Shown here one piece after another: positions 13,501 through 63,589 of a DNA stretch of 64,000 nt. The stretch is from Gracilariopsis chorda (lineage: Eukaryota > Rhodophyta > Florideophyceae > Gracilariales > Gracilariaceae), in assembly GCA_003194525.1 (NCBI GenBank), contig NBIV01000263.1:62001-126000 (forward strand), in the 5' to 3' direction. Under the pieces are notes generated by a model that had not been told where the DNA came from, ran no database searches, and worked only from the letters and a program-made list of their open reading frames with translations. Position numbers and translations under genes: made by a program. The first letter of the stretch is position 1. Every line of letters starts with the position of its first letter.

Positions 13501-14031
13501 ACAATTCCAAGTGGAAAAGATGCTAAGCGCAGGCGTGATTGAGCCTACTCAGTCGCCTTGGGCATCTCCAGTTGTACTGGCTTGTAAACCCGACGGGTCA
13601 TGGCGTTTCTGTATCGACTACTGTCGACCTAATGCCATCACCGTGAAGGACGTGTATCTCATACCACGAATGGACGAGTACATCAACTATCTCGGAGAGG
13701 CAACAGTGGTCTCCAAATTGGATGCAAACTGGGGCTAATGGCAAGTGCCCGTTCGACCGGAAGACCGTGATAGGACAGCATTTGTATGCCATTCTGGACT
13801 CTACCTCTTTACGCGTATGGAATTTGGACTAACGAATGCTCCCGCTACTTTTCAGTGTGCTTTGGATATTCCACTCGCCCACTTCAAATGGTGGAGTTGC
13901 CTCGTCTACCTTGACGACATCATAGTCTTCTCCAATATTTGCATGACCATTTCGAAAACGTTCTGGAACTCATGGCCACGCTACGTGACGCTGGAATTAC
14001 CTTGACGTTAAGGAAGTGTGAATTCTTAGAG
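10600..14031 (+). mobile_element. Ty3/gypsy LTR-retrotransposon fossil (gag-protease-RT part)
   Basis: Plus-strand pieces occur in the order expected for Ty3/gypsy: a gag-like part (about 10,910-11,600), an aspartic-protease-like part near 12,320-12,520, and reverse transcriptase from about 13,430 to 14,005. The RT part includes the VEKMLSAGVIEPTQSPWASP region, the IDYCRPNAITVKD region and the YLDDIIVFS catalytic block. RNase H, integrase and both LTRs are missing. The element is clearly broken, with many (ten or more) interruptions, and is old. It ends abruptly where subtelomeric repeat R1 begins. Confidence 0.75.
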
Positions 14032-14640
14032 TAGTGTTACTTGTATGTATGGCCTAGGCCAGCGTTTTAGGAGGTGTCGGCTTGGGCATGGTACTGACAC
14101 AGAACGTTGACCTAGTGGTGAAAACGCTGTATGCGCGTGTATGAGCATTTTTGACCCCTTGTGTGGAGAACGTTGTCCTGTAAGCACTGTATGATACATT
14201 CCGGACGGGCTAAAAAAATGTGGTCACAGATTATACAGGACAACGTTTTCCAAAAACGTTGTTCTGAGTCCAAAAAATTAATATTTTTCATCACCCCTAG
14301 GACATGGCTTTCGAAGGATTTGGCATGTGCCTGGTGCGTGCACCACAAACGTGGGTTTTCGAGGTACGTAAAGGCATGCTCCGTACCGAAATGAACGTGC
14401 TCTAGGACAACGTTTTTCGCGTATTCCGTCAGACACGTGCAAGTGGTTATGCGTGTGTAAGTGAAGCGCAAATGCTCAATCTGAGCTGCGTTTTTCTTCG
14501 TCGCTGAGACATATGGGGCTTCGCAGAGCGGTCTTAGCACTTTGTATTTGTTGAGGGTGGTAAGATTGGCTTGTTCATGTTGGATATGTGGTTTTAGCTT
14601 TCATTACGGTTCGGAAGGGAAGCGGTTCTAAGGTACCGGT
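14032..14640. repeat. Subtelomeric repeat R1
   Basis: First of three copies of a ~0.6-kb repeat (others at 15,114 and 62,888, same orientation). R1 and R3 share the left edge TAGTGTTACTTGTA. Each copy carries several instances of the word AGGACAACGTTTT in both orientations. One pair forms a hairpin (14,233-14,265 here). A minus-strand frame of about 140 codons is partly conserved among copies but has no domain, and I do not call it a gene. It is followed by telomere-like sequence. Confidence 0.8.
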
Positions 14641-15113
14641 TTTTATAATAGAGTTTAGGGCTTTTACAGCGGGTTTTAGAGTTTACGGTTACATGGTGTC
14701 CTATGTATTCTACAGGTTTTTAGGGGTTTTTAGTGGATTCTTAACACGCGGAGTTCTTCAGGGGCTCGAGGGGAACTTGCTTAGACTTTTGGGGTTTTTC
14801 ACATATAGCTGTACAGCTTAGAATAGGGTTTTTAGAGGGTTTTTATTAGGGGTTTTTATCTAGGCTAAGAGGTTTTACGGTTTATAGGGGACTGTCTAAA
14901 TGAATACATCTTAGTGATTTTCCGGATAACTTTTTCTAGCTTTAGGGTTCTTTAGTATAGCTGTATTATGTACCAGAAATGGTTGCTAAGGCAGTTTTAG
15001 CGGTTTTAAACTTGGATAGGGGTTTTTACACCTCCAAAGGTGTTAGGGGTTCGTAATAAGACCGATAATGATTGAAAAGTAGGTGTGAGAGTCAGTAGTC
15101 ATTTGGGCTCTTA
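14641..15113. repeat. Degenerate telomere-like tract T1
   Basis: Rich in GGTTTTTAGGGG, GGGTTTTTAG and related G/T words on the plus strand, interspersed with unique sequence. The R+T block recurs at 15,114-16,430, a tandem period of about 1,082 bp from R1 to R2. It resembles internal telomeric/subtelomeric sequence, not a chromosome end, because unrelated genes follow. Confidence 0.6.
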
Positions 15114-15735
15114 TAGTAGTTTAACTTATAATTATGGGCTAGGACAGCGTTTTAAGCGGTGTCGGCTTGGGCATGGTACTGACACAGAACGTTGACCTAG
15201 TGGTGAAAACGCTGTATGCGCGTGTATGTGCATTTTTGACCCCTTGTGTGGAGAACATTGTCCTGTAGGCACTGTATGATACATTCCGGACGGGCTGAAA
15301 AATGTGGACGCAGATTATACAGGACAGCGTTTTGCAAAAACGTTGTCCTGGGTTCAAAAAAATTAATATTTTCCACCCCCCCTAGGACATGGTTTTGGAA
15401 TGATTTGGCACGTGCCTGGTGCGTGCACCACAAAAGCGGGTTTTTGAGGTACGTAAAGGCATGCTCCGTGCCAAAATGAACGTGCGCTAGGACAACGTTT
15501 TTCGCGTATTCCGTCAGACGCGTGCAAGTGGTTATGCGTGTGTAAGTGAAGCGCAAATGCTCAATCTGAGCTGCGTTTGCCTTTGCTCCTGAGACTATGG
15601 GGCTTCGCAGAGCGGTCGTAGCACTTTGTGTTTGTTGAAGGGGTAAGATTGGATTGTTCAGGGGTGAATATGTGTTTTTAGCTTTCATTACGGTTCGGAA
15701 GGGAAGCGGTTCTAAGGTACCGGTTTTTAGAATAG
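15114..15735. repeat. Subtelomeric repeat R2
   Basis: Second copy of the R repeat, closely matching R1 from TATGGGCTAGGACAGCGTTT onward, including the AGGACAGCG/CGTTGTCCT hairpin (about 15,332-15,350) and the right-hand GGAAGCGGTTCTAAGG block. Its left edge differs slightly from R1 and R3. Confidence 0.8.
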
Positions 15736-16430
15736 AGTTTAGGGCTTTTACAGCGGCTTTGAAAGTTTACGGTTACATGGTGTTTTAGGGGTTTTTAGGG
15801 GTTTTTAGTGGATTCTAAGGTAGCGGTTTTTAGAATAGAGTTTAGGGGTTTTACAGTGACTTTGAAAGTTTACGGTTATATGGTGTCCTTTGTATGATAC
15901 ATGTTTTTAGGGGTTCTTAGTGGATTCTTATCACGCAGAGTTCTTTAGGGGCTCTAGGGGAACTTGCTTAGGCTTTTGGGATTTTTCACATATAACTGTA
16001 CAGATTAGAAAAGGGTTTTTAGGGGGTTTCTATTAGGGGTTTTCATCTAGGCTAAGAGGTTTTACCATTTTTAGGGACTGTGCAAATGAAGACATCTTAG
16101 TGATTTTCGGGAGAACTTGTTCTAGCTTTGGGGGTGTTTCGTATAGCTATAATATGTACCAGAAATGGTTTAGGGTTTACAGTTTTAGCGGTTTTAAACT
16201 TGGATAGGGGTTTCTACACCTCCAAAGGAGTTAGGGGTTCGTAATAGGGCCGATGGTGATTGAATAGTAGGTGTGAGAGTCTGTAATGCTTTGGGCTTTT
16301 AGGGGCTTTAGAGTATTGAGAATTACATGTTTTATGTATAGTGGTTTTTAGGGTCTGTGTAAACGGAGAGGCTTTATATCCTAACCCGTAGCCCTGCTGA
16401 AACTTTGGGGTTTTTGACAATACGAGTTTT
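15736..16430. repeat. Degenerate telomere-like tract T2
   Basis: Extended run of words such as GGGGTTTTTAGGGG and GGATAGGGGTTTCTACACC that also occur in T1. The block containing CTAGGCTAAGAGGTTTTAC is present in both tracts, so the whole R+T unit was duplicated. No gene is seen. Confidence 0.6.
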
Positions 16431-16545
16431 TTCTTATGGTAGTGTACTGGCAGTTTACGACAAAAGGCCTAAAAATTGCTCAGGAGGGAGCTTTTAGTGG
16501 TTTTTGTTATACAAAGAGCGAGATGTGCACGCGACGTTTATTCTG

Positions 16546-16574
16546 TTCGCGACAGGACAGCGTTCCTGTCGCGC
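16546..16574. repeat. Solitary GCGACAGGA hairpin
   Basis: Inverted repeat GCGACAGGA ... TCCTGTCGC with a short spacer. The arm core ACAGGA/TCCTGT is shared with the palindromes at 17,779-18,030 and 27,125-28,487. It lies exactly where similarity to the FANCJ helicase fades. Confidence 0.5.
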
Positions 16575-16589
16575 AGAGTGAGGCGTGTC

Positions 16590-17405
16590 AGGTATTTCAG
16601 CAGACAATGTTCCGAGTTGAACTAAATCCTCGATATCCCAAGGTTCGGGGTTTTTGGTCTTGTAGGTGCAAAGCATATCTGTTCCGGACGTAAAATGACA
16701 ACCACGGGCGCTGTAAATGAGGGCCTTGCATAAGTCTCCCTTTTTGTCAATTGGTGAGTTCTGAACAAGAGGATTGATACAGTAGTCATTTCGCGACCCT
16801 AAAATCGCTACCCGAGGTGCGTAATCGGTTTTCTGTAGTTCCAAGGCCACTTGTGATATCTGGGCGTGGGTTCTTGTCACGTAGAAAACCCGAGGCTCCC
16901 AAGCATTAGAGGCATTGACTGACAATTCTTCACCGCAATGTGGCTCTTGATGAGACGAAGATGTGGGGGTGGGGGCTGGAACGAGGTCTGAAAACAAATT
17001 CGTACTTGTAGTGACTGCATTGTGGGAAGTTGGACGGAAATGCACAAGCCTTTGCCATGTGGTATCCGCAAAGTGCTTAGGTGGCTCGAAGTCGTCGTCT
17101 TGGAGATGAATATTGTCATAGACATTACCCTCTGAGTTAAGAGCACTACACGCAGATGATGGACACGCGTTGTGGATAGTAGTCGAGCTTGCATCAACGG
17201 GGTTTTCATACTCGACAATGTATTGGCGGAGAGCGAGTGTCGAACATAATAGGGCGAGCGTTTTTCCTGTACCTGTCGGAGATTCGATGATTGAGTGTTG
17301 GCGTTTTTTACCCGAGCTTATGACCGAGTGCATCAGTGCGAACTGAGTGCCGTAAGGTTGATGGGGGAATGAAACGGGAACGCCTGCAATTAGAAACAAT
17401 GGCAT
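16590..17405 (-). pseudogene. FANCJ/BRIP1-type DEAH helicase, 5' part only
   Basis: From ATG 17,405 the protein reads VPVSFPHQPYGTQFALMHSV, the Q-motif region of FANCJ-like helicases. Walker A ESPTGTGKTLALLCSTLAL follows at residues ~38-56 (coding 17,240-17,292), then motif Ia PRVFYVTRTHAQISQVALEL. Next is the start of the XPD-family 4Fe-4S domain, with Cys in DYCINPL, DLCKAL and RGCHF, and NPEPWDIEDLVQLGT, as in BRIP1. The family normally continues for several hundred residues through DEAH and helicase domain 2. Here similarity ends near 16,600 at a palindrome and subtelomeric DNA. FANCJ unwinds interstrand-crosslink and G-quadruplex DNA. This copy lacks the ATPase DEAH box and cannot be active. 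Confidence 0.75.
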
Positions 17406-17778
17406 ATTGGTTTAAAGATGGATGCTTATGAGAAAAGGGGGTGTAAAAGGTGTTGCAGCGGATCGCAGAGCGTTGAAGGAGGGGTTGGGACAGCCGGAAG
17501 AACAGATAGGGTCTCTCGCTATAACACGAAGCTTAGGAGGTTATATGCCGTGTGACTGAAAGTATGTGCGTAGTGTAGTGCATCAATAACCAAGCGTTAC
17601 GATTGTGCAAAAGCGGTTGTGACCTTCCACGAGTGAAGTGACAAAGTGACACGTGTGGGTATTTGGCACAGGCGCCCCGTGGTGACAAGAAATTTGTAGA
17701 GATTCAGATGTATGGGGTTTTCGTTACAACATCTTGATCCACTTTGAGAGCAATAATTTGCCTCTGCAGAAAACGTGA
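17406..17778. other. Intergenic, nothing recognised
   Basis: Sequence upstream of the FANCJ-like start. No domain in any frame. The interval probably held its promoter. Confidence 0.4.
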
Positions 17779-18030
17779 TGTGTCGAGCGACACGAGTGTG
17801 TTTGAACGACAGGAACCGGTTCCTGTCGTGCGAGCACAGTGGCAGCCGCGCACAGCGCGACCTGTGTCGAGCGACACGAGTGTGTTTGCACGAAAGGAAC
17901 CGGTTTCTGTCGTGCGAGCACATTGGCAGCCGGGCACAGCGCGACCTGTGTCCAGCGACACGAGTGTGTTTTCTTGACAGGTACCCGTTCGTGTTTTGCA
18001 ATCACACTCGCAAGGACCACGCAGGTTGCG
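17779..18030. repeat. Three tandem 84-bp palindrome-bearing units
   Basis: TGTGTCGAGCGACAC begins at 17,779 and 17,863, and TGTGTCCAGCGACAC at 17,947, a strict 84-bp period. In units 1 and 2 it is followed by a long inverted repeat, CGACAGGAACCGGTTCCTGTCG, centred on CCGG (17,808 onward and 17,892 onward, the second with one arm change). Unit 3 has decayed. Both the outer and inner palindromes are the same words as in the larger array at 27,125-28,487, although spacer and period differ. Frames through it are repetitive and not taken as genes. Confidence 0.85.
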
Positions 18031-18289
18031 CCAAGCGAAACATTTGCCTTGCGAAGACGTTAAGCCACTGCTCTCGTGTAACGATGCGCATTGTCTTTGT
18101 AGGGCGGGATAGGCGTTCTGGGCCCGCTTGCGTTAAACGCATATGGGTGGATGCCCATAGGGCCATAACGGCTGAATTTATAACCCCTATATATTACATA
18201 ATAGAATGCGTTGCTCGGCACCAAGTGATGAGGCGGGCGAGGTTTAGCACCGAACGAGAATCCGAGGCTGTTATCCACGCATGGAATAG

Positions 18290-21200
18290 TTAGTCCCTGT
18301 GCTTATCTTTGTTTGCCGTGTTCATGATCTCCGTCTTCAAGTTGTTGTAACGCGTTTGGCTGCTTGGGTCAAACAGTGCAGCGGCGGCGATGCTATCCTG
18401 CATATCTAAAGATTTGCGCCACAACACCCATGCGGCTTGTCGAAGTGCGATGAATTCACAGTGCCTGGTACCAAACGTTGCTGGAGAAGCATGCGTTTTA
18501 AACCCTTTGTAGTACCCCATTTGAGATTGGTAACATGTACTAGGTGCTCCTTCTTTCACGTCGCAGAGCGAAGTTTGATGAAGAGACGAGAAGCAATGGA
18601 AGCATCTTCCTTTTCCATATGCACAGGAATGTTGTTCTTTGGAAACCACACGATGTTCGGACATCAAGCATGGTATGCAGACGGAGTTGTAACGCCGTGC
18701 CAGCTCTTGGATGTGGTGTACGAGAACCTGTGGGGACATACTTTCGAGCTCGTGAAAGGCATTTGCCGATGACTGTGGTGGCGTACAGTTTTCCCCGGCC
18801 TCTTCAAGTATTTTCTGAGTTGGATTCCTTTGGGGCCCACCGGTGTCCATCCTTGCTTCATGCGCATCTCTGGATAAGTCAGGCAGCATTAGTAACGGTT
18901 GCAGTTCAAAGTCAAGTTCTTCATCGTCTTCAGCACGATGTCTCGGTGGGGGTGTTACAATGGCTCTGACGTGGTTTTTCAGAGATGGCGTCGAAGTAAT
19001 TGGGTTTTTTATACTGCTTTGTTCAACTGGCTTTGTAGGGTCGGTGTGTGGGGTGGAGCATGTGGAACCATTGCGTTTGTTACACACATCACAGTTGAGA
19101 ACCTGGGGGCTGAATAAGCAAATACCGGGTTGAGTGCCATCAACGTACCCGTACAATGCGTTTCGCCGACAAACTGTGTCCGATTCCATCCACGGCTTGG
19201 AGCTATTCCATCGGTTCTGAGCCATTGCGTCTAAGTAGATTCTGCTGATATCGTGCTTGTTTTGATTATTGGTCGTACATAACAAGTCCCTTATCTTCTG
19301 GAAATAATACTTGCAGTATATTGTGACACACTTGGCAGGTTTGTTGTCTCGACCCGCTCTGCTGGCTTGCTGCGCGAGTCCCACTAAGCTTGCTACACCT
19401 CCCTAGGTGTAAACGATACGCACATCAGGTGCGTCAAGTCCGGTTCCAAACGCCGCTGTGCAAATCATTATTAGGACTTGCCTAGGGTAACAATTTGCGG
19501 TTTGTAAGGGTTGAGGGGACATCCAGTTGTGGTGTGTGTTGGTTTTGTCGTTGTCTGCGAGTCCCGCATGGTATAGTGAGAGGGTGAGGAATATATCGGG
19601 GTTTGTATCTGACCACGGCATTGTGTCCTGTTGGGTAAGGTAAGTGTGGCAATATTCTGCGTCTGATCTCGTCAGGGAAAAGAGCATAATTCGAACCACC
19701 CGGTCGTCCGTTGTGAGTAAGAAGTTGGAAACATCGTTTGCGAAAACGTGTAGTGCCTGCTCGATAAATTGAGTAAATTTAGATCGATAGAGGCCGGTAT
19801 CTGTCCGGTAACGCTTCAAACTAATGGGGATTGCGGTGATTGAGAGGTCTGTTACGGTAAAGGATATATTGTCTCGGGCGGTGCAGGTGTGATAAAGGGA
19901 GGCAGCTGAAATTTGGAGTTGGGATAGTAGTAATGGTCTATCGGCAGGAGGAAGGGTTGCACTCAGCATCACTCGAGGAACTTGAACGGGTACATAGTGT
20001 AGACCCACATGCATATGCGCCAGAGCCGGGCGGAAGTGTTGCCACATCAGATAGCGGTGCACCTCGTCAAGTACAATGCGTGCAAGGCACTGGTGGTGTG
20101 TTAAGTGTTGAACTAAAGAATGAAAGGCTTCCGAAGCCACCACGTCCACCGATAGTATGTATACATCTGCAAATTCTTCTCGTCCGTCATGACGTGGGGT
20201 CGTTGAGCACTCTAGATCGAATCTTGTAACCCTCTGCACGTATTCTGCCGCTAAGGCTTTTAGAGGAACAACGATGATAGATGTCATAACGCCTTTTTCC
20301 ATGTACATCGGTAGTAAGACTGACAACGTTTTCCCAGAAGACGTGGGCATCAAAACTAGCATTGTGTCTCTCTTCTCCCATACCGCAGCTGTTATAACAA
20401 ACTGTGCATGCGATTTGAATAGAGCCGTATCGTTGCGTAACCCTTCCCTGAGGGCGTCCAGAAACCTTGGTATTAAATTTTCGTATACTGTCGGAGCTGG
20501 AGTATACAACACGGCACCTCCTCTCGGCAGCTCTCGTCGCTCTACAGACCTCGACCCGGGCGACATGTACGGGAATGTCTTCTTACTGGATTTGGTCGGA
20601 GTAGAGTGGTTGCCGTCCTGGATGGAAAGGGGCTTCGCAGCGTGATGTGCTGGCGTTTCGGAACCACCTCCTGAGACGATAACCTCATGTAAGGGATTCG
20701 GGCTTGGTCGCTTCTTTGCCGTCTTGGCTGGGAAAACATTTGCGATTCCGAGAAGGGTGTGCCATTGCGTAGACCACTCCCTATATTTCGAAAGGTCACT
20801 TCTTCGTAAGCCGGTTATATCTGTAGGGGTGCGAGCATAGAGCATTTCAGCTGTGTGAGCGGAGTGTCCAGCTTGATTGTGGGCTGTTTGAAAGAACTCT
20901 TCCATGATAGACTTTGAAAAGGAGTTTTCAAGGCCCTTAGCAAGTATAGAAGAAAGTACGCAGGTGATACCCGCAGAGAAGTTGCGGTAGTCAGCAAATG
21001 TGATATTGTATCCAGCAGCTGAGAAACGAGCTGCGACTATAGGTCGAATTGCTTTTGCAGTAAGCGCTGCTCCCTGAACGGCAAAAAGCATCTTCCACTG
21101 GATGTCCTTCTTCTCTTCGCCGAACAACAAGGATACAAACAGAGTTTCAACGGGGCGGATGAGTGTGAAGTAGGTTAAAAGCACCTGCGCCGTTTTATGG

Positions 21201-23685
21201 TCCGGGAATCTGGGAACTGGGCGCGCGCCGCCAGTTGTGTTCTGTGTTTTCAAGTATCGAGTGATTAGAACCGGTTTAGAGTCCAGGAGAATAAGAGAAC
21301 GGAGATGGGTGTCGTCGTTATGCAAGCGGTAAGATTCAATTTCTGTTCCTCTCGCTGGAGAGCCAGAACCCAGATGCAGCGCCACCAGCAGTCGTTCTTG
21401 AACCTTTTGGGCGTACGTCAACCAACGTAATATACCATTTCTAAGCAGGAAGTCCTGGCCAAGCCGAATCGTATCCAAGGCCGTTTCAGTTGGGTCACCT
21501 AGGAGGAAGCATGGAACATGGGAGCAGGAGGCAGAGCCCTTCCTAAGACTTTGTAGTACATATTCCATGTTTTGTTGGATGAAACTTGTGTTTTGCGGGT
21601 GTATAAGGAAAGAAAATCCCGGGGCTCTGTTTGAAGGTGAATCTTTTAAGGATGTCAACTGTGTCCTGAACAAGGGGGGGAAGGGAAACCCATCGAGCAG
21701 ATCATTCGAAATAACAGATTCCATATCCGTGTTTAACTCCTGCACGAGATTCCCCACCTGCGACAAGCTTAGATGCACATCCTTAACAATTCCGCAGTTG
21801 GTGTGGATTGTACATGGTAAAAATGACACATTTAGGCTTTCTTTTGTCGCAATGCTCATAGCAACTTTCAGAGTGTTTCTTATGAAAGAAAATGCGGTAT
21901 TTGCCTGCATATCTAGAGCCCTTGTTAGGCTCGCCATCTCAGAAACGTTCGTTTCCGTACTTTGTACACTAAACTGTCCGAGTGTGTGTAGGTCATGGAT
22001 GGCAGATGCTGCGACAGCGTATTGCAAAGCCGCAAGCAAGTGAGTGATGTCTTCAGCCGCGACGTATTTGTAAATAGGCTTGTCCAGTTCGCAATCCGTA
22101 AATTTGAGAACCGAGGCACAAGCAACAAAATTACAGACTAACAACCTGCTCGTTGGCGTGTACGGTTGAAGAGTCTGTAGCAAACATGCTTTTACGGACG
22201 CATGCAGATTCTTCATCATATTGGGAATTGTGATGACTTCCACAGTCATTTTGGCGACCGATGTTGGCACCAAGTCATGGGAGCGGGTATTAGCGTTTAC
22301 GACAAATAACAGCAACCTTGCAACGTCTAGAGCGTACCTCTGTAACGTCTCGAGGCGCACGGTTTTGAAAGCAAAGTTTGTTCGATGGTTCAAACTATGC
22401 AGAAAGAAAGGGGGTAAGGTGGACATTATGGACGGTGTTCGTTGGATGTACTGAACGATGTTTGCGGAAAGCTTTGAGAAATCTGGGTTATTGCCGCGGG
22501 CTTCAACCAACTTCGCCTCCGAAAGAAATACTGCGTCTTCCATTGATATGCGAAGGCTTTCAAGGGCCAAGTCCAACTTCGTGCTCTGGATGAACTAATT
22601 AAGACATTTCTCATCGGCGGTATTGCTTCCAATTAGAGTCTTCGAACGGCTTGGGCGCAAATCCCTAAGAAACGTCTCCACATGCTCCGTGTACGCACCC
22701 GTATACGGTGGTTTTTGTGTTTTCGATACTAAGTTAACTGTATCAAGCTTGGTACCGGGGAGGGTCCTCGACGTCACAAGAGGACGAATTGGAAGAGATT
22801 TGGGGTTCTCAACAAACACTGGCTGCGTGTCATTTGCGATTTGTGGGAGGGTATCACGGGCGATACTTGTGTGGTCGGTCTGCGAAGGTGTTGAGTGGGA
22901 GGTAGGCTTCCGTGTGCCTTTCAGCATAAGAATCCGTCGATGTAAAACAGAGCCCACTGAGTTGTCATTTGTAACCGCAAAAGACCGTTTATTAGTTCCA
23001 CAGAAAACGCTCTGAACGCGCAATCTTCCCCGGTCAAGTTCTTTCTGGACAGCATTACGCGCAAAGCTTATATCCGTATTGTGAGATTCTCATATATGTT
23101 TTTGGAGGGTGGCTGTATCCACCCAGGCAAATCCACATTCAGGGCATAGGAGACCTAGTTCGGTTCAAAGTAAAACAAAGGGGGTAGTACGTCCTGTAGA
23201 GCATTTCGTTTTTGAACATCGTAACGGTTAAAAAGGGGGTGGGGTCCCGATAAACGCGTGTTTTCACACACCATGTGCAGCTCATTTGTTGCCTTCTGGG
23301 CTTCAAGGAGTTCCATGTAATGCGGTTCATGTCTGAGATGGAATTGCATCGAGCGCTTTGAACGGAACGCCAGTTGGCAGTCCACGCAAACCATAACGTG
23401 CAGAACGTCATGTACGCCTAGTGTTACGGTGTTAAAGTTGACAGGTAGACTCTGCGGAGTTGCAGGAGACGAGAGGATAGCCATATTATGCGTTGCGTTT
23501 GCCATTACGATGAGGGTGGGGAGGAGTTTATAGGGTATAGTCGAAGTGGGTTCCACAATGTTCTCACTGAGGTATACGGATGAGTAAGAGGAGGGGGAGT
23601 GTGAACGATCAAGATATACTGGGCAGATCGTAATGGGGATCTGCAACAGGTTAACGCGGTAACGTGTTTGCTTATTATAGTGCAA
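18290..23685 (-). pseudogene. OrsD zinc-finger + RecQ-type helicase (TLH-like), interrupted
   Basis: Read leftwards: two zinc-finger modules, MVCVDCQLAFRSKRSMQFHL (near 23,320-23,400) and LLCPECGFAWVDTATLQKHI (near 23,090-23,160), arranged as in the fungal OrsD/DUF3505 domain. A long alpha-helical region (22,576 to about 20,700) follows. The superfamily 2 helicase core is next: motif I LVLMPTSSGKTLSVLLP (~20,310-20,360), Ia VPLKALAAEYVQRV, II VLDEVHRY (~20,065), III MLSATLPPAD, and VI QQASRAGRD (~19,340). Then a RecQ-like zinc region CRRNALYGYVDG ... LNCDVCN, and a Cys/His-rich tail. This matches subtelomeric TLH helicases. In-frame stops lie at 23,092-23,094 (TGA), 22,595-22,597 (TAG) and 19,403-19,405 (TAG), and there is one frame change near 23,155. 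It is recently inactivated or a member of an active family. Confidence 0.75.
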
Positions 23686-23919
23686 TTGCGCAGGTGTATG
23701 AGGGGTGCTTTAACATCTGTAATGAACGGACTGAAGACGTGGCTAAGATCTTACGGAATGTTAATTACGTAATGCATATTGTGACCATGTGTTAGCAGGC
23801 GGCGGTACCCATACAGTGGAGCAGAGGAGTATGAGGGGTAACTGGAGTTTGGTGTTTACTGGACTACGAAGCTTTGGAGGTGTTGCTGGTTCTGCTGTCG
23901 AGGAGGTTTGATTTCCAAC

Positions 23920-26900
23920 AGTACTCTACACCATACGATAAAAACAACTCTTCCCACGCTCAATCCGGCGAGTTGCACGAATCATTATTATGGTGTAATC
24001 TTCGAGCTGCTTCCTGTTTCGAATGGAGGCCAATTTGTGCTTATCCAAGGTTACACTCTCCGTTCTTTTCTTTTTATACTTGTCAGCAGACAGCTTGGAT
24101 GTCCAGATCGCCCTCAATGTACCTTGGGTCATTGATGTAGCCACCAATACAGAAAGGGGCCGGCGAAATAAAGATTGAAGTTCGCTTCGTGTCCCGGTTG
24201 AGACCAACCAAGGCGGCAAAATCCGGGCCAGAGACATCAACCTCCATGGCATACGAGCAAAAATGTGAAGGGGTTACACCCAGGGGCCCCTCTCCATATG
24301 TCTTGTGGATCTCCTAGCGTTGAGAAAGGTCGTGGTAGACAAGTGTACCGTAGAAATAACAAACTATCTCCCCTCGCGTGAAAGTTGTTCCGGCGAACAC
24401 CCCAATGCCTGCATTAGGATGGTTTATAGTAGACTTTGCGATGACCAGACCAGAGGATGTAGCTTCCACAGCACGTAAGTCCATTGCATCCATGAGGTTT
24501 AAAGCGCCCTGATACTGTGCCGGCCATTGAGACAATTCCGTGTTGATATATTTGCAAGCAAACAGGTTGTCGTTCCATTTGGATGCGCAATGAAACATAA
24601 TATGTTGTGGGAATCTCTGGTATTGTGGAAAGTGTTTGGGTGGGGTCCAAACTTTTGAAGGGCGAGTGTAGGTCTGGAAGTAATTGCTTACTAATCGAGC
24701 AGCGTCCAAAATCCCTTGAGTTGCCGTGACGTTTGCGATGTCTTCAGCAATGAGCCGTGAGAAGAATTTGATGGCAGCATGCTTTGCGTGGTAGAAACAT
24801 GCCGGATCTTTTTCGCACCCAACAAATTTACGACCCTCACCACGCTTGAAAGACATACAGGCGAGGGCGGTAGAGAAAGTACCAGCAAAGAGGTCTACAA
24901 CCGTGTCACTCGGGTTGGAGAACCGCGCTATAAGTTCCCTCGCAAGACGAATTGGTTTCTGTTCAGCGCGAACCCTTTCACGCATCAATTGGCCACTCGG
25001 GTTCAATTTAGACCACATGAGAGTCTCATTGACATCCAAGGTCGGTACGTTATCTATAACGTTTTTATAACTAGCAACCGTGGAGGATACGTGGTTGAAG
25101 TTCATGTAGTTCACCTGAGATTGTTCCTGTTCTCGGGAAGCACCAACCTTTACCCCGTGAACTGCGTATTCCACAATTGTCATTAGTTCTCCAGATGCTC
25201 TTCCAGGTGCGGCTGTGATGTTACCCGACCCTCGGATGAAGTGAAGTTGGCAAGCATCCACCTTAAAAACCGGTTCATCGTTGCCGTCCTCATCCTTCAA
25301 AGTTGCGTTTCGGAACATTTTCTGCCAACTGAGGAACAGTTCAACGGAACAGAATAGAACGAAATGGCTTCCTTCACGGAGAACGTTAGCGACATTACTC
25401 ACAACGCCCTTCATTTCAGCCATGGTTAAGGCGTCGTAATCACTGTTCCTTCTGTCTGCCGCAGCGCGAACGAGCGTTGGAGCATCCAGCAAAGCGAACT
25501 GGGCATCTTCACATGGGACGGAACTGTGGAGCGGAGAGTATTGTGGACTGGAGGGAGTTCGTCGTAGGGAGTAGAGTACATGGCATAGTGTTTCATCATC
25601 TCCCGCTCCACTATCTCCATTGCCTTCCAAACCGTACCACTGACTTCTTCGTCTGGCAGAAATACACCAGTACCTTCCACGTCGTAAGGGAGGTAAGTCG
25701 TTGGCTGAAAGTTTGGAGCAGCCTCGCTGTCTGCGTCTTGTGGTCTTAGAGGTTGCTCAGGAGGCGTGTCTGGCTCCAGTTCATCGTTGGGACTAGTGAC
25801 CAAGTCAATGACTTCCAACGTGCAAACAGTTGAGGTTTGTGCTTCACCACTAGAAGTAGGAGGTACCTGGGCGTTAGCTGTTCGGATTGGAGCCCAAAGA
25901 TTCTCACTTAGCCGGTCGAATCGTTGTGGATACGAACGATGTCGGGTATGCTGTGGGTCCAGTTGGGCCCGCTTCACGTCTGGGAGGAACTCCAATAGTA
26001 GTAACCATTGTTCAACTCCCTTTTCGTACAGGCGTGGGTGAGAGATGACCGTGACAATGTCATTGAGGAATTCTTCTGCCAGAGCTCGAAGTCCCTCGTC
26101 AGCATCTTGCGGAGGTGCGTAGGCGTGGCTATCAACCCCCGATGATGTCGTTCTGGGGGTAATATCTCCGATAAGAGAGAAGGACTGTCTGTGCGGTACG
26201 AACCCTTCAATGCGAGTCTTTAGAGGTTTGAAGAGTAAAGATGAACCGTCAAAGGATAGATACGCGCTTAGAATCGATCCGGTGTTGTGGAAAAACCAAG
26301 ATATGTGGCGAAGTTGTCCCAAGCACGAACAATTTGTTGCACGCCATATGCAATTCGATTGCAGTTCTGATCCCCGAAATTCTTTAAAGGGACTGCCTGA
26401 GGTTGTGTTAGGTCGTCGGTGGAACCAGAGCGTTTTCGCTTCTTTGAGAGAGCCTTCATTCGTTGAGTTAACAGAACGAACATGCTCAGATATAGAAGAA
26501 CCTGAAAGCGTGTCGCTCTTTCGGTAGTGACTTCGTCCCTCCCTTTTCTTCTGAGGCTCATTCCATCCACACGAGACCTAACTATATCGGCAAGTAAATA
26601 CCGTATAGTGAAGGGAAACCTTCGCGCCTTGCATAAGCGGTAGTAGTCCTTGAAAAGAAGATCTTCTTCATTATCCATCTGATCTAGGGACCGTGCGATT
26701 TGAAAGGCCTGTTGCAAAGCGTTGTGCTTGGGCGAGTGCGTGTTAGTTAAGGCATTTAGTACCTCCACGTCTCCAAAAGTTGACATATCGGAGGAACCAA
26801 TTGCCTGTTTGCATAACTCCATGGCAGACGGTGACGAACCGCGTGTTGCTATAGCTAACTCGGCAATGGTCTTGTATTTCAAGTCCCTTGGGTGGTCTTC

Positions 26901-26972
26901 CGGTGTACGTTCAGCGGCATAGTTGTCACGTAATTCCAAAAATGCGGACACTGTGCTTGCATATTGTGGCAT
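23920..26972 (-). pseudogene. Beta-class DNA amino-methyltransferase fused to a SET domain, frame-broken
   Basis: ATG 26,972 starts an unrecognised N-terminal region (to about 26,280), which continues in another frame to about 25,570 with an acidic linker. The third frame (25,630-24,314) holds the methylase: motif IV as FALLDAPTLV (~25,480), then motif I as TVVDLFAGTFSTALACM (~24,865-24,905) and FVGCEKDPACFYHAK. Order IV before I is that of beta-class N6-adenine/N4-cytosine methylases. The usual DPPY is DAPT here, so activity is doubtful. The C-terminus turns into a SET domain: NAGIGVFAGTTFTRGEIVCY, then past a stop CIGGYINDPRYIEGD, RATRRIERG and EELFLSYGVEY (~23,930). SET proteins methylate histone lysines, so the fusion could couple DNA and histone marking. 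At least three frame changes are present. It is divergent from the ParB-like genes. Confidence 0.65.
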
Positions 26973-27124
26973 GTTGACGGGTTTTTAGATCGAACCGACG
27001 GAGGAGGTAGTAGAGAATGCGTCGTTCTTGTCGAAGATGAGACTAAAGCTGGTATAAAGGGGTACACCTTGAAATGCAGGTGATTCAAAACGAACGGGTG
27101 TTGGCGTAAGGGGTTGCTTTGTAG

Positions 27125-28487
27125 TGTCGAGCGACAGCTCGGTACTCGGCGGACTGGAACCAGTTCCTGCCGTGCACGACCGCTGTAATACAAATACTAT
27201 ACGCCATGTACGTTTTAAAACCTCGAAAGTCTCCCAATTTTATACTATATTTTAGAACATGGATAGCACGGGTTGTGTCGAGCGACAGCCCCGTGCGTGC
27301 TTGGCAGGAACGACTTCCTGTCGTGCACGAGAGGCTGTGTCGCTGAACACAAATCGGATCCCAAAACATATCAATGAAATGAGAGCAGTGTGCAAAAGGC
27401 GTGGCGCATGTACATACGTATCATAGTTGTACGTAAAGTGATACGCGTGGGACTGTGCCAAGTGCTCTTGCCCGCGCCTTCATATTTGCATTCATTTCGG
27501 GGGGGGGGGGATGTGTCGAGCGACACGCCCAGTCCTGCACGACAGGAACTCATTCCTGTCGTGCACGACTTGGCCTAAAAAAAAAGAAATAGTATTTGAG
27601 GTAATGCGAATATACGTGTCTGTAGTGTACGTAGAGTAGCAGGTGTGGGTTTGTGTGAAGCGCCGTCGCCGGAGCCTTAATTTTTGCATTACTTATGGGG
27701 GGGTTCTGTCGAGCGACAGGCCCAGCCGTGTACGACAGGAACTCATTCCTGTCGTGCATGACCGTACGTGTCGTTCGACACAGCTGGCGGCCAAAAATAT
27801 TGGAAATATTTTTGGAAAGAGTGTGGAAGGGGCATGGCGTTGCAAATACGTGTCAGTGGTGTCAGTACTATCACACGTGGGTCCCTGCGCCAAGCAGTGT
27901 TGGCCATGCCCTTGTTTTCACATAATTTTTTGAGGGAGGGTGTGTCGAGCGACAGGCCCGGTTGTGCACGACAGAAACTCATTCCTGTCGTGCACGACCG
28001 GGCGTGTCGCTCGACACACTTGGCTGCCCAAAAAATTGAATTAATTTTTTCATGGACAACACATGCATCATGGGGCATATAGATACGTGTCAGAGTTGTA
28101 TGCAAACTGACACGTGTGGGTTTGTGTCAAGCGCCGTTGCCCGCGCCTTTATTTTTGCTTTAATTAATGTTGGGGGTGTGTCGAGCGACAGGCCCGGTTG
28201 TGCACGACAGGAATGAGTTCCTGTCGTGCACAGCCATGGCTGTCGCTCGACACACCCGGCTGGCGGAAATATTTGAAATATTATTTATGTTGATGCGCAT
28301 GGGGCGTGGCTCATGCACATACGTGTAGGAGTTGCACGTTCCCCGACACGTGTGTGCCTGCGCCTAGCGCCGTCGGCCCCTTGTTTGGAGTTTATTTTGG
28401 GGGGGTATTGTGTCGAGCGACAGGCTTGGCCATGCACGACAGGAACTCATTCCTGTCGTGCACAACCAGGGCTGTCGCTCGACACAC
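27125..28487. repeat. Tandem array of seven nested palindromes
   Basis: The outer word (TG)TGTCGAGCGACA starts at 27,125, 27,274, 27,512, 27,704, 27,941, 28,177 and 28,409; the last four steps are 192, 237, 236 and 232 bp. About 20 bp inside each is the inner hairpin TGCACGACAGGAA/TTCCTGTCGTGCA with a 4-nt centre. In at least four units a mirrored outer word (TGTCGCTCGACACA) closes a ~78-bp foldback (for example 28,177-28,254). Spacers are related to one another, with ACACGTGTGGG, a CGCCxTTGCCCGCGCC-like block and a G-run before each palindrome. The array separates the divergent methylase-SET and ParB-like genes, so it also occupies their promoter interval. Confidence 0.9.
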
Positions 28488-28807
28488 CATTATGGGAAAG
28501 TGTCCCAAAAATTCGGAAAATGGGGGTGTTGAAAATAGCCCGTATTCGAAATGATAAAATAGTGCGGTTGGCGCCCCTTCCGAGAAGGGTCTCGTAAAGT
28601 AAGGGAGGGAATGGTTGCGACTGTTGTACTGTGCCGTCGTGGGCTGTTGACTCAGGGCTTTGCGTGAGTCCATCCGCCACCGCGTAAGGGTTAGTAAAGC
28701 GTGTTCTAAGCACGCTACGCGTTATCGTTTCATCGCTCGAAACATTCCGCCATACGTCTGCGCCTATCCTCAAGCGTTTCTGTTCTGGAATAACTCCACA
28801 CACGAGC

Positions 28808-30613
28808 ATGTCGTCATCAGCAATCGTGCCAGGGGCGTCAGTGTCTCTGCTTCTGGCGAACGAAGATGTCGTTGGGATCGCTACAGTGTTTGAGGCCGAA
28901 GGGGAGTTTCGCCGCACTCTCCACGGACATCCATTGTCTGCCTGTGCGAAACCCTGGGAGGATCTGGTTGTGGTGATCAAAATCACCATGATAGAGAACA
29001 AAATGGAGGCCTATCCATACCCGTTTAAAGGAACCGAACCCCCTCCGAAGCATTTATCCGGGATGACGTTTTATGGAATGTATGCTTGGGACCTGAAGCT
29101 AATGCGCCCCCGAGTACTCCCTGGACCTTCTCCTCGTTCAACAGGGGCGTCCGGTACAAGCAGCCGAAGTCAGGAGCGCTCTACAGCGATTGCCCGAGGA
29201 ATTCGCTCGACGACACAGTCCCCCCGAAGCCGACGGGTACCTACCATATCGCGCAACACACGTCTGTCCAATACCGTTCCGCTGCCCGGCTCAGAAGCCA
29301 CAACGCCAAGCGAACGGAGGATGGTTGGCTACGGTTCTACCCTTCACCTACCGCCCATGAGGGCTAGTGTCAAGAACACATCAAGCGTTCGAACACCATC
29401 AGGGGACGCGGTTGTATCCGCTAAGAATTTGGTGCCTCACAAGAGCCAGGCGTCCGGCTCTTTATCCGGCGTGGGTACTGGTGAGGGTGGGAAGTCTACG
29501 GAAGATGCAGGTGCTGTATCTGAAGATCATACACCCATTCCTGTTGCCGAGTCTGTTGCGGAGGAAGGTAGGGGGAGTGTGAAGGTAGCCCGCGATTTGG
29601 GTAGTGACTCGGAAGAAGTTCAGATTGTGTCTGAAGTTCTGGGTCAGTCGAATGATAGGACGCTGTATAGTGAGGACGATGTGGTTGAACCTGTTCAGGT
29701 GGACACACAGTTTTCGAAGGAAACCATTCGTCTGCAGGACTACAAAGCCCAGATACTCGTTGTGGATCTGGATTTAATACGACTACCAGAACTCAGTCCT
29801 CGTGGAATCGAAGAAGAGCATGCCCAGAGCCTGGACAATGAGCTCGAGCGAAAGGGTTTGTTGGAGTCGGCGGGGTTGATGAGTGTAACCATTCGGATGA
29901 ACGGGCGACCTTTGGAAGCAGGTGTTCAGAATGGGCGCATAATTGTATCTCCAGACCTCGTCGATGGACGACATCGTCGACTTGCCATTTTCAGGAGGAG
30001 GATCAAGGAAACAAGGTGGTATGCGGTGCTGAAATCGCTTCGAGTTCTCAGCTGGTAGAGACCGGACAAGAAGGACCTGACGTCACATGAGATTGTGGAA
30101 ATTGGAGTTCTTCTGAATGATACTGCATTGTCTGTACTGAGAATGCGGTTTTCGGACCGCATTCACTCAGTAGTGAGTATCATTAACTCTCTTCATGTGG
30201 ACTTGGACGTGGTTGTTGGGGAGCTGACCGTTGGGATGGTAATTGGAGCCCTTCAAAACTCTGCAGTAACCAAGAAGATTGAAGAAAGACAGCTGCGTCG
30301 CATATCAGAAATTGCGCTCAAGCTTGCTAACAATCCTATGTTGGTGGATGTTTTCGAGCGGGTTTGTGCGCCATATTAGAATGTGGGTATCACGCACATG
30401 TCCTCAGACAAGCTGTTAAGGATGGAACCGCTGGAGTTTACTTTTGCGATGAACTGCTTGATGTTCTACGTCGGTCCCAAGGGCCCCTCTATCCGAGTTG
30501 GGTTCGAAATGGTACGATCTTACTTCTACAGCAGTGTTTTACAATTCCTGGAAGACATGAAGCGAATGGCACTGTTTGAGGTGGAAATGGAGTCGTTGAC
30601 TTCGATTTCGTAA
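28808..30613 (+). pseudogene. ParB/sulfiredoxin-like protein 1
   Basis: ATG 28,808 opens a frame with an N-terminal module RRTLHGHPLSACAK ... YPYPFKGTEPPPKHL ... GMYAWDLKLM, shared with the next gene and reminiscent of a transposase-associated domain of plant CACTA proteins. A Ser/Pro-rich linker follows. Residues ~310-415 contain LVVDLDLIRLPEL ... IIVSPDLVDGRHRRLAIF: the DGxHR motif of ParB/sulfiredoxin-fold domains. Reading continues in the same frame through two TAG codons (30,056-30,058 and 30,377-30,379) to 30,613, and each half aligns without gaps to gene 2. Both TAGs face Arg in gene 2. The 2OG-oxygenase part of gene 2 is absent. It is a truncated, lightly decayed paralog. Confidence 0.6.
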
Positions 30614-30730
30614 GCAGCAGGCGCCTGTGCCTCAACGCGAAGGAAAGCCTCGATACGCTTCGATCCAAGTGCGCACGAATACGAAAGCGGAAACCGAATT
30701 GAACACTCAAGCAAAGTTTAAAACCCCTTA

Positions 30731-33700
30731 ATGTCCCGGGAGCCGGTCGGGAATCCCCGCAAGGGCTCACCTCTTCTTTCTGGAGGGGATGCCGTGCAGT
30801 TGTTTATCTCCGATGAGAACGAAAATAGGGTGATGGTGGGCACTGCAGAGCTAAGAGATGTCGGGGGAAGTGGCGCCGGTGGGAAAGGACTTTGTCGCTC
30901 TCTACACGGACATTCTTTACGTCACAGCGCGTTGCAAGAAGAAGACCTGGTGGTAATCTGGAAAACAAAAATTCCGAGCTCTGCGAACGCGAAGTACCCC
31001 TACACGTTCAAAGGTGCAGAGGAGCCGCCAGGAACACTAAATGAGATGGTGTTCGCTGGTTTGTATGCGTGGGATGTGGCAATGATGGCCCAAATTGGCT
31101 GCGTAGGCAATGGAGAACCTGCCGTTCCCTCAAAGATTCCAACTGGGAATGGAGAGCCTGGAAATATGCCGCACGTGGCGAAACCCTCGAAGGATTGTGC
31201 CGAGTATGTTAGAAGAGTGAAGGAAGCCATGGAATCGAAGAACAAGCCGGTTACCACAGGCATAAAGGAGACGGTAACGGTTGTGGGAAACTCAGATGAT
31301 GGTCTTGAGGAAGTGGTCAACGGCAGTAAACAAACTCAGACTGCGTCTGAGGTCGAGTTTGTGGACACAGAGAATGCGCCAGAGGACGTGGATACATCTT
31401 TGGGTGGAACCAAGGTTTCTTTTGCCGACTACGACCAATACAGGTTAACTGTGGATATCGACTTGATTAATATTCCCAAAAAGACTGTTCGCAGTGTGAA
31501 TGCTCAACATAAGGCAAGCACTATGGAGAAGTACAAGACGTTTGGTTGGCTTCCGTTAGCGGGATCTATTGCTGTGGAGTTCTTGAACGAAGCAGAGGCG
31601 GAAGAAATTATAGAAGACAGCAGAATTGTGGTCCCCGTCATGCTTATTGACGGTTTACATCGCGTGCTTGTGTTGATAGACCTCAGGAAAGAAGGCTGGA
31701 AATGGGTTGATATCGTAAGTTCTCTGGATGTAGTTGTGTGGAGACGAAAAGACCGCAAGAACCTGTCATTGAACGATGTGCTGGGACTCGGAAATCTGCT
31801 TAACGAGATGAGCTCAAATGTTCTGAAGATGACATTTGCGGACAAGCTACACAGTACCGTTTCCTTTATTGGCAATTTGATGGAGGAAAACAGATTGAAG
31901 CTCGAGAACATTACCGCGAACCAGATAGCTGGGGCACTGAAAGTCAGAGAGACTATCGGCAATTACAGCGTGTGACATTTGAGTCGTTACGCGGCCCTTG
32001 GTATGAAGTTTATGAAAGATGAAGGACTTTTGAAGTTCTTTGAAGGGGTGTGGGACGAGGGGCGTTTTCTAACGCTATCGCATGTGTCCGACGAGACCTT
32101 ATTGGAACTCGAAGATGCTGGATTTCGCTTTGTGATACGTTGCCTGCAACAGCACTTACGCATGAGAATGACCTCGTCAGAGAAGATGGGTCGTTTCGAA
32201 GACACGCGGAAGCATTTCTTCGACTGTGCGATACGAATGTTTAGGTTTTGTGAGGAACTGGGGAAGAACAAGGGACTGAATCTGGAAGAAGTCTTTAACA
32301 CCGGGCTCACGTTTGCAAACAGGAAAGTTTCTGTGAATGATTACATACAGTCACAGACCGCGAAACTGGAGCTATCCGGACCGATGCGTCGTTGGTCGGG
32401 GTTGATAATGTCAAGGGTGAAGAATGTTCGAAAGAGGATTGAAGAGCATTTCAAGATATCAATGGAATCACCACCTGCAGACTGTGATGTGGTGATAGTT
32501 GAACCATCTCACCAGGTACAAGTTGTACCGCGTGAAAAGGGCGTTCCTCAGGAACCAAGCACATCTTCTGGTTCTGAAAAGAGCCAAACAGACTCTGAGC
32601 CACGTGTTCTGAGACAGAGCACGCGCAGTAGAAGAGCGACCCAACAGCCCACGTTGGACCGTGATGGACAGGTTACGAAGAGCAAGAACAAGAGGAGAAA
32701 GAAGAGCAACATCGAAGTCTTCAGTACACATAATGATGAAACTGCGCTACCATCCAAAATGAAGAAGACTGTGAGTACACCGTCTGGACGTATATCGACA
32801 GAGGTCATCAACATGTTGAGAAGTATGACAAGGAGGCAATTGACGAACTTCTTGAAAGAGCAGTCCATTCTTGTCCTTTCATCGAGCGAAGATGAAGGGG
32901 AAGAAGTGGGGACCTGTTTTGTGGAGGACGCAGAGAAGGATTTAGAAGAAGGTTGGCGAAGGTTTGAAGATATTAATCCACGGAATGTTCCGAAAGGGCT
33001 AAAAAAACCACGAGACTACACTGCAGGTGCGAATATGTCGTGGGTTTACTTAGTCAATGCGCTGCCAAGTGAATGGCCAGGGAGAGCGAATGCGGTGAAA
33101 CATCAGCACCTATGGATGCAGATGGTTCACCTCCACAAGGACCACAGGGCAGGGTGTCTGAGTGTGGAAGAATTGAGAGGTGTGCACCATGCGGTGTACT
33201 GGCGGGCTGCCTATGCCATGCACAAGGAGCTGGGCTCTACAACCAAACCCGTTCTTGGGGTAATTCTACCAAAAAGTGGAAAGCCTTCGAATGAAGAGGA
33301 AGCACTGTGGATGGTGGCGATGGAGAGGGATGAATTGGCCCGAGAGTACTTTGCTATGAAGAGAATAGAGCTTATGGAGAAAGGGTTTTGTGTCCTGGAC
33401 AACTTTGCAACGAACGATGGGATGGTATATGAGGCGAAGAAGAGGGGTGTCACTGTGGATGAAGATGTGACAGAAAGCTTACTAAAGTTCTTTCAGGAGG
33501 ACTTTATGAAGCAACCAGACCTAATCGCCGAAGAAAATAGGACGAAATGGAATCCCATTATCAATGCTGGTGAAGCCAAAGACGCTGCCGATAGAATGAA
33601 GGGTGTGGGGCGATACATTACGACGAAAAACGGTACCGTTGATGCGGTTGAAAGGGATGAAAACAATCTATTGATTGTCAGGAAGAGGGCGATGCTGGAT

Positions 33701-34391
33701 GTCCGGTTTGTGCAGATTGCAGCCGCTCATCGGTTATGCAACAACATGGCAGGAAAGAAGAAAATGTATGCACCGCAAACTGGTGGTCGTGTGCTCTGTA
33801 CCGGAGAAGGTTGCCCGAGGCAAATGCTGCACACTGATTTCAGAGGGCTTATATCTAGGGAGAGGGAAGCTGGAGATATCCCAGGGTTTTTCATGATGGC
33901 CTCTTGGGGTAGTTCTTTTATGTTATGGGTTTGTGAGAGGTCACATAACATGTATGTGACTGATGACAAAAGCTTGAAGCGATTGTCTCAGACCATGCTT
34001 GTGAAGAAGTTCAGAACTCTGCCGTACTCTATATTGGGACGTCTTTCATGCTGGAGCGGCATACGACGATTCTCTGGTTAAGGAACATTGTTTCAGGTAC
34101 CATATGTACCTCGTTCCGGAGGGCTATAAGCTACCAGAAGCGGTGCATAGACAGCCTGCATTTCGGCCAATGTTTGAGGAGGAGGACTGTGGTATGAGAG
34201 ATGATCCGAACGATAGGATGGGTTTTGAGGAAGATCTGGAAGAGTCAAGCGACGATGAGCAGATGGAAGACGTGGTGTATGGAGAAGAGGACTACCAAGA
34301 AAAAGAAAATGCGAAGGTATTAAGGGGCAATGAAGATAACATAGACGAAGACTGCGATGAAAATGCTCTGTATTTGGATGATCAAGATTAA
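30731..34391 (+). pseudogene. ParB-like + 2-oxoglutarate/Fe(II) dioxygenase fusion
   Basis: ATG 30,731. Domains in order: N-terminal module CRSLHGHSLRHSAL ... YPYTFKGAEEPPG ... GLYAWD (residues ~50-120); ParB/sulfiredoxin-like domain with RLTVDIDLINIPKK and MLIDGLHRVLVLID (~235-330); helical region; a basic linker (KKRKK-type patches, ~32,680); and a C-terminal double-stranded beta-helix. The last has RQMLHTDF (His-x-Asp iron ligands, 33,830-33,838) and, after a frame change near 34,035, VFHAGAAYDD and FRYHMYLVPEG, supplying the distal His and the Arg that binds 2-oxoglutarate. An acidic tail ends at 34,391. One in-frame TGA lies at 31,973-31,975, opposite Arg in paralog 1. Such dioxygenases oxidise methyl groups or proteins; a DNA or histone substrate is inferred from context only. 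Confidence 0.62.
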
Positions 34392-60047: not shown

Positions 60048-60880
60048 ATGCCTTTACATTCGTACTGTTCAGTTGCTCAGGTTCTGGGTGTCTCAGATCA
60101 CACTGGACACCCCAGGATAAGAGCACTTTTCTCTGATGGGTCGATTGAAACTGTCCCCTTTACTGACATAGTTTTCGGGTGTAGAACCAGCGAAGAAGTT
60201 TCCCCCTTCGCCACTGTGAAACGCCTAGAACAACAAGCTCGCACGCTTGCTTTGGAAACGTTTGGTAGTACACAAAGAGTTCATGGAGTTCTCATGAACA
60301 AAAATGATCTCCACCAAACGATTTCCATTGAACATATATGCAGGCTACTCTTCAACCTCTCAGCAACTGCAAATCTAGAAACCGTACAGATTCTTTCTAC
60401 TCTCATAGCCCTTACTGCTGAAAATGGGGTTCTATTTGAAATAGAGCAGACGCTTTTGGAGCCCGGTCAACAATGGCACGAAATAGTCCCAAACGTAACC
60501 CTAAAGCAGCAGAATATTCATGCCAACATAAGAAAAGAACCTTACTCTGACCTCCAACCAGTTTACGCCTTGAGACTCGCAACGCTAGAAAAGTCAATCG
60601 TTAGTATGCGCTGCAGCTATCCAAAAGAAATGATTCTGTACATTGAAGCCCTACATGCGTTTGTAGCTAGAGGCCAAAAACATTTTTTTGGCGGGGAAGT
60701 CTGGAAGGAAACTACTTACCGCACCGGATTTATAGGTCTGTATAATAGAACAAGACGTATTATATATCGGCGCCTTATTCAGCACTTCCAAATTGCATCC
60801 CGAAGAAGGCGTCTTCGGTGTGACGATGCAAAAGCATTTTTACAGCAAGTGGGCATTGGACCATACCTGGAACACTCCAT
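58680..60880. repeat. Segmental duplication, copy 2
   Basis: Counterpart of 56,570-58,608, slightly longer because of intergenic insertions (offset grows from about 2,113 bp at the left edge to 2,272 bp at the right edge). It carries the PIF1 5' end on the minus strand and the RNase II 5' end on the plus strand. Confidence 0.8.
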
Positions 60881-63500: not shown

Positions 63501-63589
63501 GGGTTTTTAGAATAGAGTTTAGGGGTGTTACAGCGGCTTTGAAAGTTTACGGTTACATGGTGTCCTATGTATGCTACAGGTTTTTAGAG

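Follow-up and report, generated by a model that had tools for sequence, protein, structure and literature searches.

The 64,000-nucleotide stretch of Gracilariopsis chorda DNA analysed here (contig NBIV01000263.1, positions 62,001 to 126,000; hereafter the window) carries two arrays of one palindromic module. The larger array (U array) has seven tandem units, U1 to U7, and the smaller one (T array) has three, T1 to T3. Both palindromes of the module are built from a common half-site, TGTCG, and the module combines two short blocks, set at a fixed distance, that are conserved selectively. We give about an even chance to the explanation that the arrays are bound, at many densely packed sites, by a sequence-specific protein that probably belongs to a mobile element. 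An original prediction, made from the letters of the sequence, had described the seven-unit array. The feature is real and well organised, is larger than that prediction saw and follows a simpler rule.

The seven units are present where they were predicted. The 12-mer TGTCGAGCGACA is exact in all of them (at 27125, 27276, 27514, 27707, 27943, 28179 and 28411). When up to two mismatches are allowed, this word has 31 matches on the two strands of the window, compared with a mean of 4.27 in shuffled sequences, and none of 100 shuffles reaches 31. The full 14-mer TGTGTCGAGCGACA, which was originally given as the outer palindrome, is exact in only five of the seven units, with a one-base change in U1 and U4. 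In each unit the inner palindrome begins 14 base pairs (bp) after the outer one. Its predicted 13-bp arms, CGACAGGAA and TTCCTGTCG, are exact in four units (U3, U4, U6 and U7) but are altered at one position in U5 and at more in U1 and U2. The outer word is mirrored in five units (U2 and U4-U7), exactly in U5-U7 and with one mismatch in U4 and two in U2, yet the complete foldback of ~78 bp that had been attributed to many units is formed in only about half. Start-to-start spacings are 151, 238, 193, 236, 236 and 232 bp, and thus four of the six lie in the predicted range of ~232-238 bp and two do not. The array covers most, but not all, of the interval between genes that it was said to fill (26984 to 28688/28808).

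A single half-site accounts for the two palindromes. In the outer one, TGTCG-AG-CGACA, two inward-facing copies of TGTCG are separated by 2 bp, and in the inner one, CGACA-GGAANNNNTTCC-TGTCG, two outward-facing copies are separated by 12 bp (GGAA-NNNN-TTCC). In U4-U7 there are six copies of TGTCG or CGACA, at module positions 3, 10, 29, 46, 65 and 72, which form a symmetric hexad spanning 78 bp. Half-sites number four in T1, three in T2 and one in T3; counts for the U units are given in the table. There are 35 copies in the 1368 bp of the U array (25.6 per kilobase, kb), only one of which falls outside the modules, and eight in 255 bp of the T array (31.4 per kb), as against 108 in the remaining 62377 bp of the window (1.73 per kb).

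The T array lies 10 kb from the U array, where it separates the 3' end of a RecQ-type helicase frame from the beginning of a FANCJ-like one, and its copies are 100, 94 and 65% identical to the first copy. Its location removes the exclusive link to a 'methylase-SET' gene and a 'ParB-like' gene that had been proposed for the palindromes. The ten modules of both arrays were used to build a covariance model, which was run on both strands of the window with filters off. The arrays match this model by construction, and the only other convincing copy in the 64 kb is a single inner palindrome at 16544-16589, the next best match (15418-15457) having an E-value of 0.073. The module is therefore limited to ~12 kb of the 64 kb. 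A dispersed miniature inverted-repeat transposable element (MITE) would have many copies across its genome; within these 64 kb the module occurs at three places only. Both array sites are probably noncoding, as they contain no long frames with family matches.

The two parts of the module differ in how well they are conserved. U2-U6 were aligned, and U1 and U7 were excluded because neither has a full unit on one side. If alignment gaps are disregarded, mean pairwise identity is 0.95 over the left outer and inner blocks (32 columns), a value reached by none of 20000 column permutations. The corresponding values are 0.893 for the mirrored outer word, 0.622 for the loop taken with the 14-bp gaps, and 0.616 for the spacer. 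When alignment gaps are counted as mismatches, the values are 0.97 for the outer word, 0.69 for the left 14-bp gap, 0.87 and 1.0 for the inner arms, 0.43 for the loop, 0.59 for the right gap, 0.54 for the mirrored outer word (which is missing in U3) and 0.57 for the spacer. When U modules are compared with T modules, the outer word (0.96) and the inner arms (0.83 and 0.84) are again retained, the gap (0.36) and the loop (0.37) are not, and the gap length stays constant at 14. Thus, the earlier statement that arms remain perfect while spacers drift is correct as far as the short blocks, outer and inner, are concerned. It fails for the intervening 14-bp stretches, whose drift resembles that of the spacer. 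The palindrome is not conserved as a whole, whereas two short blocks at a fixed distance are. Because the rest of the hairpin drifts like spacer, recognition by a protein is favoured over selection on the hairpin. Among the three functions originally proposed (a multi-site operator, an origin or a nucleation centre for a mark), a multi-site binding array fits best, given that the short arms are kept beyond the spacer.

Several observations weigh against such protein sites. The comparison of U2-U6 involves only five related units, the conservation between U and T is partly due to ascertainment because that comparison was anchored on the blocks, and the hexad pattern was spotted post hoc, after inspection of the data. 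No binding protein was identified. The flanking genes carry in-frame stops, and so this copy may be past selection. There is no target-site duplication (3-11 bp) at the candidate ends 17779 and 28486, which are the only ends tested, and there are no defined element ends. No transposase family was found among the open reading frames (ORFs) given to Pfam, which are a subset of those in the window. Finally, the 14-bp gaps pair with their own mirror at an average of 9.0 of 14 positions in the U array (five units) and 10.0 of 14 in the T array (three units), compared with 5.4 and 5.6 of 14 across the arrays and 3.4 for random 14-mers of the window. Bare protein sites would not need self-complementary gaps.

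The self-complementary gaps are better explained by the main rival, which we nevertheless consider somewhat unlikely. It holds that the arrays are a passive satellite derived from a foldback or MITE-like repeat, wherein palindromy was inherited from inverted repeats and homogenised by unequal exchange or hairpin-mediated copying, without present function. The units are indeed tandem with alignable spacers, the adjoining genes are decayed, and in each array the gaps are complementary to their own mirror even though the two arrays differ from each other. The spacers are self-complementary in two of the four tested (2 and 8 of 200 shuffles score at least as high, and 62 and 45 for the other two). 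Also better explained by a satellite is the 4-nucleotide loop of U6, TGAG, which is the exact reverse complement of the CTCA found in U3, U4, U5 and U7 and could be a trace of hairpin or recombination activity. Compared with U4, U5 and U7, this loop has no matches in direct and four in inverted orientation, and the arms are neutral on orientation. This single case suggests that the tip was flipped by a process involving a hairpin or recombination. What a passive satellite does not account for is the sparing of the blocks, since homogenisation alone should not preserve them while the gaps of the same hairpin drift at the spacer rate. Were the arrays such a satellite, the short conserved blocks within otherwise drifting palindromes would still need explaining.

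Two broader interpretations of these repeats were rejected. Inversion of the whole U6 palindrome was first hinted at by its direct and inverted identities, but was narrowed to the loop, since only those four nucleotides discriminate. A 236-bp unit that forms a single palindrome is backed by only two of the four spacers. The U spacers also contain a second, weaker inverted motif, ACGTGTCAG...CTGACACGT (for example at 28086-28118), and a half-copy of it is located near the T array at 17648-17668.

Covariation gives a mixed picture. When U and T modules are taken together, the covariation score is 0.312, compared with 0.199 for shuffled data. None of 500 shuffles reaches this score or the observed number of paired cells, and one of 500 reaches the number of cells changed on both sides. 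By contrast, pairs changed on both sides (364 of 500) and pair types (162 of 500) are no better than in shuffles. This signal, which speaks for a passive satellite, is a contrast between two families. The five units of the U array, taken alone, show no unit-specific covariation, as the observed values are reached in 112 to 226 of 500 shuffles, and this counts against the satellite. Selection on the hairpin as a structure was rejected for the U array because re-dealt 3' letters pair equally well in its five units. Since the gaps pair with themselves within each array yet do not covary within U, palindromy seems to have arisen or been renewed separately in each family rather than maintained unit by unit.

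These results also bear on a structure-based element, such as a cruciform-forming origin, a partition site or a recombination hotspot, including nucleation by a ParB-like protein, which we judge very unlikely. The inverted U6 loop and the strong foldback of U5-U7 (z -13 to -15) are what such an element would predict. Folding is uneven across the U array, with DNA-fold z-scores from U1 to U7 of -1.69, -4.37, -6.88, -4.71, -13.11, -14.98 and -12.98, and it is weak not only in U1 but also in T2 (z -1.12). Hairpin positions outside the blocks drift freely, and the missing unit-specific covariation in U is equally unfavourable. Clusters of short palindromes are characteristic of parABS-type partition sites, and those described here lie near a gene with a DG-x-HR motif. 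However, this motif was recognised by eye only, and no family search supports the name 'ParB-like' that the gene had been given. There is no Pfam match at E<=1, nor for C-terminal parts at E<=10, no NCBIfam match, and no PDB match at E<=10 for a profile of the two paralogues. The structure model is unusable (mean predicted local distance difference test score, pLDDT, 35.1). In addition, the T array is not beside this gene. A third DG-x-HR frame is located at 51342-52373, with a weak DndB match below the cut-off (15.2 bits, cut-off 29.1, E 0.012).

One close parallel to a dense array of protein sites is provided by the VANC proteins of Arabidopsis VANDAL elements. According to Hosaka et al. (2017, PMC5735166), these proteins remove silencing and recognise short motifs, which have built up in tandem repeats within the noncoding DNA of the element. 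As in that account, the motif in the window reaches a high density in tandem repeats and is rare elsewhere, and the repeats differ between related copies or sites. The VANC motifs described there are 8-9 bp long and share the same orientation, whereas here a pentamer is arranged as inverted and everted pairs in a symmetric hexad. The element in the window is putative, and no VANC-like protein was found, no search having been aimed at one. A second parallel is Galileo, whose long terminal inverted repeats (TIRs) contain tandem repeats with many sites for a THAP transposase (PMC3688188). The U units likewise match their own reverse complements and fold back, with internal tandem repeats that carry repeated putative recognition sites in a foldback-like architecture. 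The difference is that a TIR pair, a target-site duplication and a P-superfamily transposase were not found here, the last among the ORFs given to Pfam. A terminal-repeat transposon spanning 17779-28486 was rejected, as it has no target-site duplication. Tetris repeats grew into satellite arrays (TIR-220; PMC4079207) and are a precedent for a passive satellite. They resemble the U array in having tandem units of ~220-236 bp that possibly came from transposon inverted repeats. Unlike Tetris, the window has nested palindromes and a second array of another period, and no Tetris-like ends were identified.

The genes around the arrays look like parts of a decaying mobile element, with a RecQ-type helicase, a methylase, a FANCJ-like fragment, paralogous frames and in-frame stops (coordinates are collected in the table). 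The DNA methylase that was predicted beside the U array, divergent from the frame on the other side, is a bona fide N6/N4 methylase. It matches PF01555 with 45.9 bits (cut-off 26.7), and its best PDB matches are DpnA, MboIIA and CcrM-type adenine methylases. The SET domain assigned to the same gene does not have a Pfam match, and its motif was seen by eye in a broken frame beyond the methylase. The RecQ-type frames match DEAD with 60.5 bits and TIGR00614 with an E-value of 1.1e-20, but the latter score (73.9 bits) is below the cut-off of 219.8. Tyrosine-recombinase-like motifs noted by eye in the RecQ frame (20735-21634) were discarded, as there is no Pfam match at E<=10 and the best PDB match has an E-value of 0.86. 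A structure model of 20675-21694 in the same frame is too poor to use (pLDDT 36.8). The DEAD_2 match of the FANCJ-like frame stops shortly before the weak module at 16544. The Pfam check of the region from 1 to 14 kb, which bears on any distant remainder of this gene, covered two ORFs. There is no Pfam or NCBIfam family match for the frame of 701 amino acids that has dioxygenase-like motifs by eye.

In-frame stops break the long frames at 19403, 22595, 30056 and 31973. By eye, the paralogue reads through the stops at 30056 and 31973, which suggests decay rather than introns. An alternative genetic code was set aside because all of TAG, TGA and TAA occur among the stops. There are no tRNA genes in the window, and no Rfam match at the gathering threshold.

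Dimeric regulators typically bind half-sites that are inverted or everted, and the U array is located between divergent frames, while the T array is upstream of the FANCJ-like frame. Perhaps, then, a host transcription factor binds the arrays, which would serve the divergent gene pair as an operator or enhancer with multiple sites. This is unlikely, since the module occurs at three places only in 64 kb, all of them among decayed element-like genes, and the genes that would be regulated carry in-frame stops.

Table. Coordinates of the arrays, their modules and the neighbouring genes in the window
Feature	Coordinates	Strand	Remarks
U array	27121..28488	.	seven tandem units, each with an outer and an inner palindrome 14 bp apart; five have the mirrored outer word
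U1 module	27123..27182	+	two TGTCG half-sites left; without mirrored word
U2 module	27274..27351	.	four half-sites; mirrored word with 2 mismatches
U3 module	27512..27571	+	four half-sites; without mirrored word
U4 module	27705..27782	.	six half-sites; mirrored word with 1 mismatch
U5 module	27941..28018	.	six half-sites; full foldback
U6 module	28177..28254	.	six half-sites; full foldback; 4-nucleotide loop is the reverse complement of the U3/U4/U5/U7 loop
U7 module	28409..28486	.	six half-sites; full foldback
T array (T1-T3)	17779..18030	+	three 84-bp tandem copies of the U-type module; unrelated 14-bp gap sequence
Weak single inner-palindrome copy	16544..16589	-	covariance model 18.2 bits, E 1.1e-4; in FANCJ-like frame just past the end of the DEAD_2 match
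FANCJ-like helicase, N-terminal part only	16494..17411	-	DEAD_2 54.4 bits, profile 1-101 of 172; PDB FANCJ chain E 1.5e-23
RecQ-type helicase frames	18290..23709	-	two in-frame TAG; weak N-terminal C2H2/OrsD-like segment
N6/N4 DNA methylase gene	23926..26984	-	SET-like tail (motif only, broken frame); putatively including 26268-26984
Paralogous pair, first member	28688..30379	+	DG-x-HR motif, 'ParB-like' unproven; in-frame TAG at 30056
Paralogous pair, second member	30722..31975	+	32% identical to first; TGA at 31973, then 701-amino-acid open frame in frame
Long frames	31976..34391	+	2-oxoglutarate (2OG)-Fe(II)-oxygenase-like motifs by eye, without family match

If the arrays are indeed protein sites, the TGTCG pentamer would be the basic site of the putative binder. 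The outer palindrome would then present an inward pair, the inner palindrome an outward pair, and the second outer pair would complete the symmetric hexad of 78 bp. The module may have been amplified twice, upstream of the divergent gene pair into tandem units of 236 bp, and independently upstream of the FANCJ-like frame into units of 84 bp. One possibility is that the protein, presumably encoded by the element, binds densely to the element's own noncoding DNA and thereby opens chromatin or assembles the element ends, putative roles that are modelled on VANC proteins or the Galileo transposase. A hexad that serves as a protein address would also provide a short, testable probe with which both the element family and its binder could be sought in the host. 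In addition, motif-array recognition by mobile elements would extend beyond plants and flies, to an element with a DNA methylase of the adenine/cytosine-N4 type. Under a more specific proposal, which we regard as improbable, the TGTCG hexads would act as the self-address of a large eukaryotic element with DNA and chromatin modifiers of its own. A protein of the element would bind the arrays and thereby recruit the methylase with its SET-like tail and the dioxygenase-like protein to the element's DNA. This would amount to self-marking or anti-silencing outside the plant VANDAL family, by means of a symmetric code of six half-sites.

Searches for relatives gave few leads. In the viral_contigs collection there are no relatives of the methylase, the 701-amino-acid frame, the paralogous pair, the RecQ-type frame or an 811-amino-acid frame at 48.5 kb, and the inner-hairpin pattern has no matches. 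The 14-mer is found there in 118 stretches, with one match each among the 80 listed, and these were taken as chance. In genome_contigs, the inner-hairpin pattern occurs in 17 bacterial stretches, compared with ~4 expected by chance according to our own estimate, and 5 of the 17 are titled Elusimicrobium or Elusimicrobiaceae. The 14-mer is in no paper of the open-access literature searched.

Other features of the window include direct repeats of ~1.09 kb, two of which are in tandem at 14023-16301 and a third at 62882-63643, with 90-92% identity over the shared ~720-760 bp. Beside them are telomere-like tandem repeats of TTTAGGGGTT / TTTTAGGGGT (63632-63796 and 15783-15808); no relevant paper on TTTTAGGGG as a telomere repeat was found in the open-access literature searched. 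A Myb DNA-binding domain frame at 47023-47838 (PF00249, 28 bits, cut-off 24.4) is a candidate binder of the array or of the telomere repeats. There is a segmental duplication of 56563-58608 and 58678-60880 (76-77% identity, in two pieces), the right copy of which runs into an RNB-domain frame at 60048-62483 (E 4.8e-29). A PIF1-type helicase frame is located at 55069-56775 (PF05970, E 1.2e-37). Together with the FANCJ-like and RNB matches, a WD40 match and apparent introns, it points to a eukaryotic origin of the window. A reverse-transcriptase-like peptide, noted by eye at 13388-13735, has no Pfam match at E<=1.
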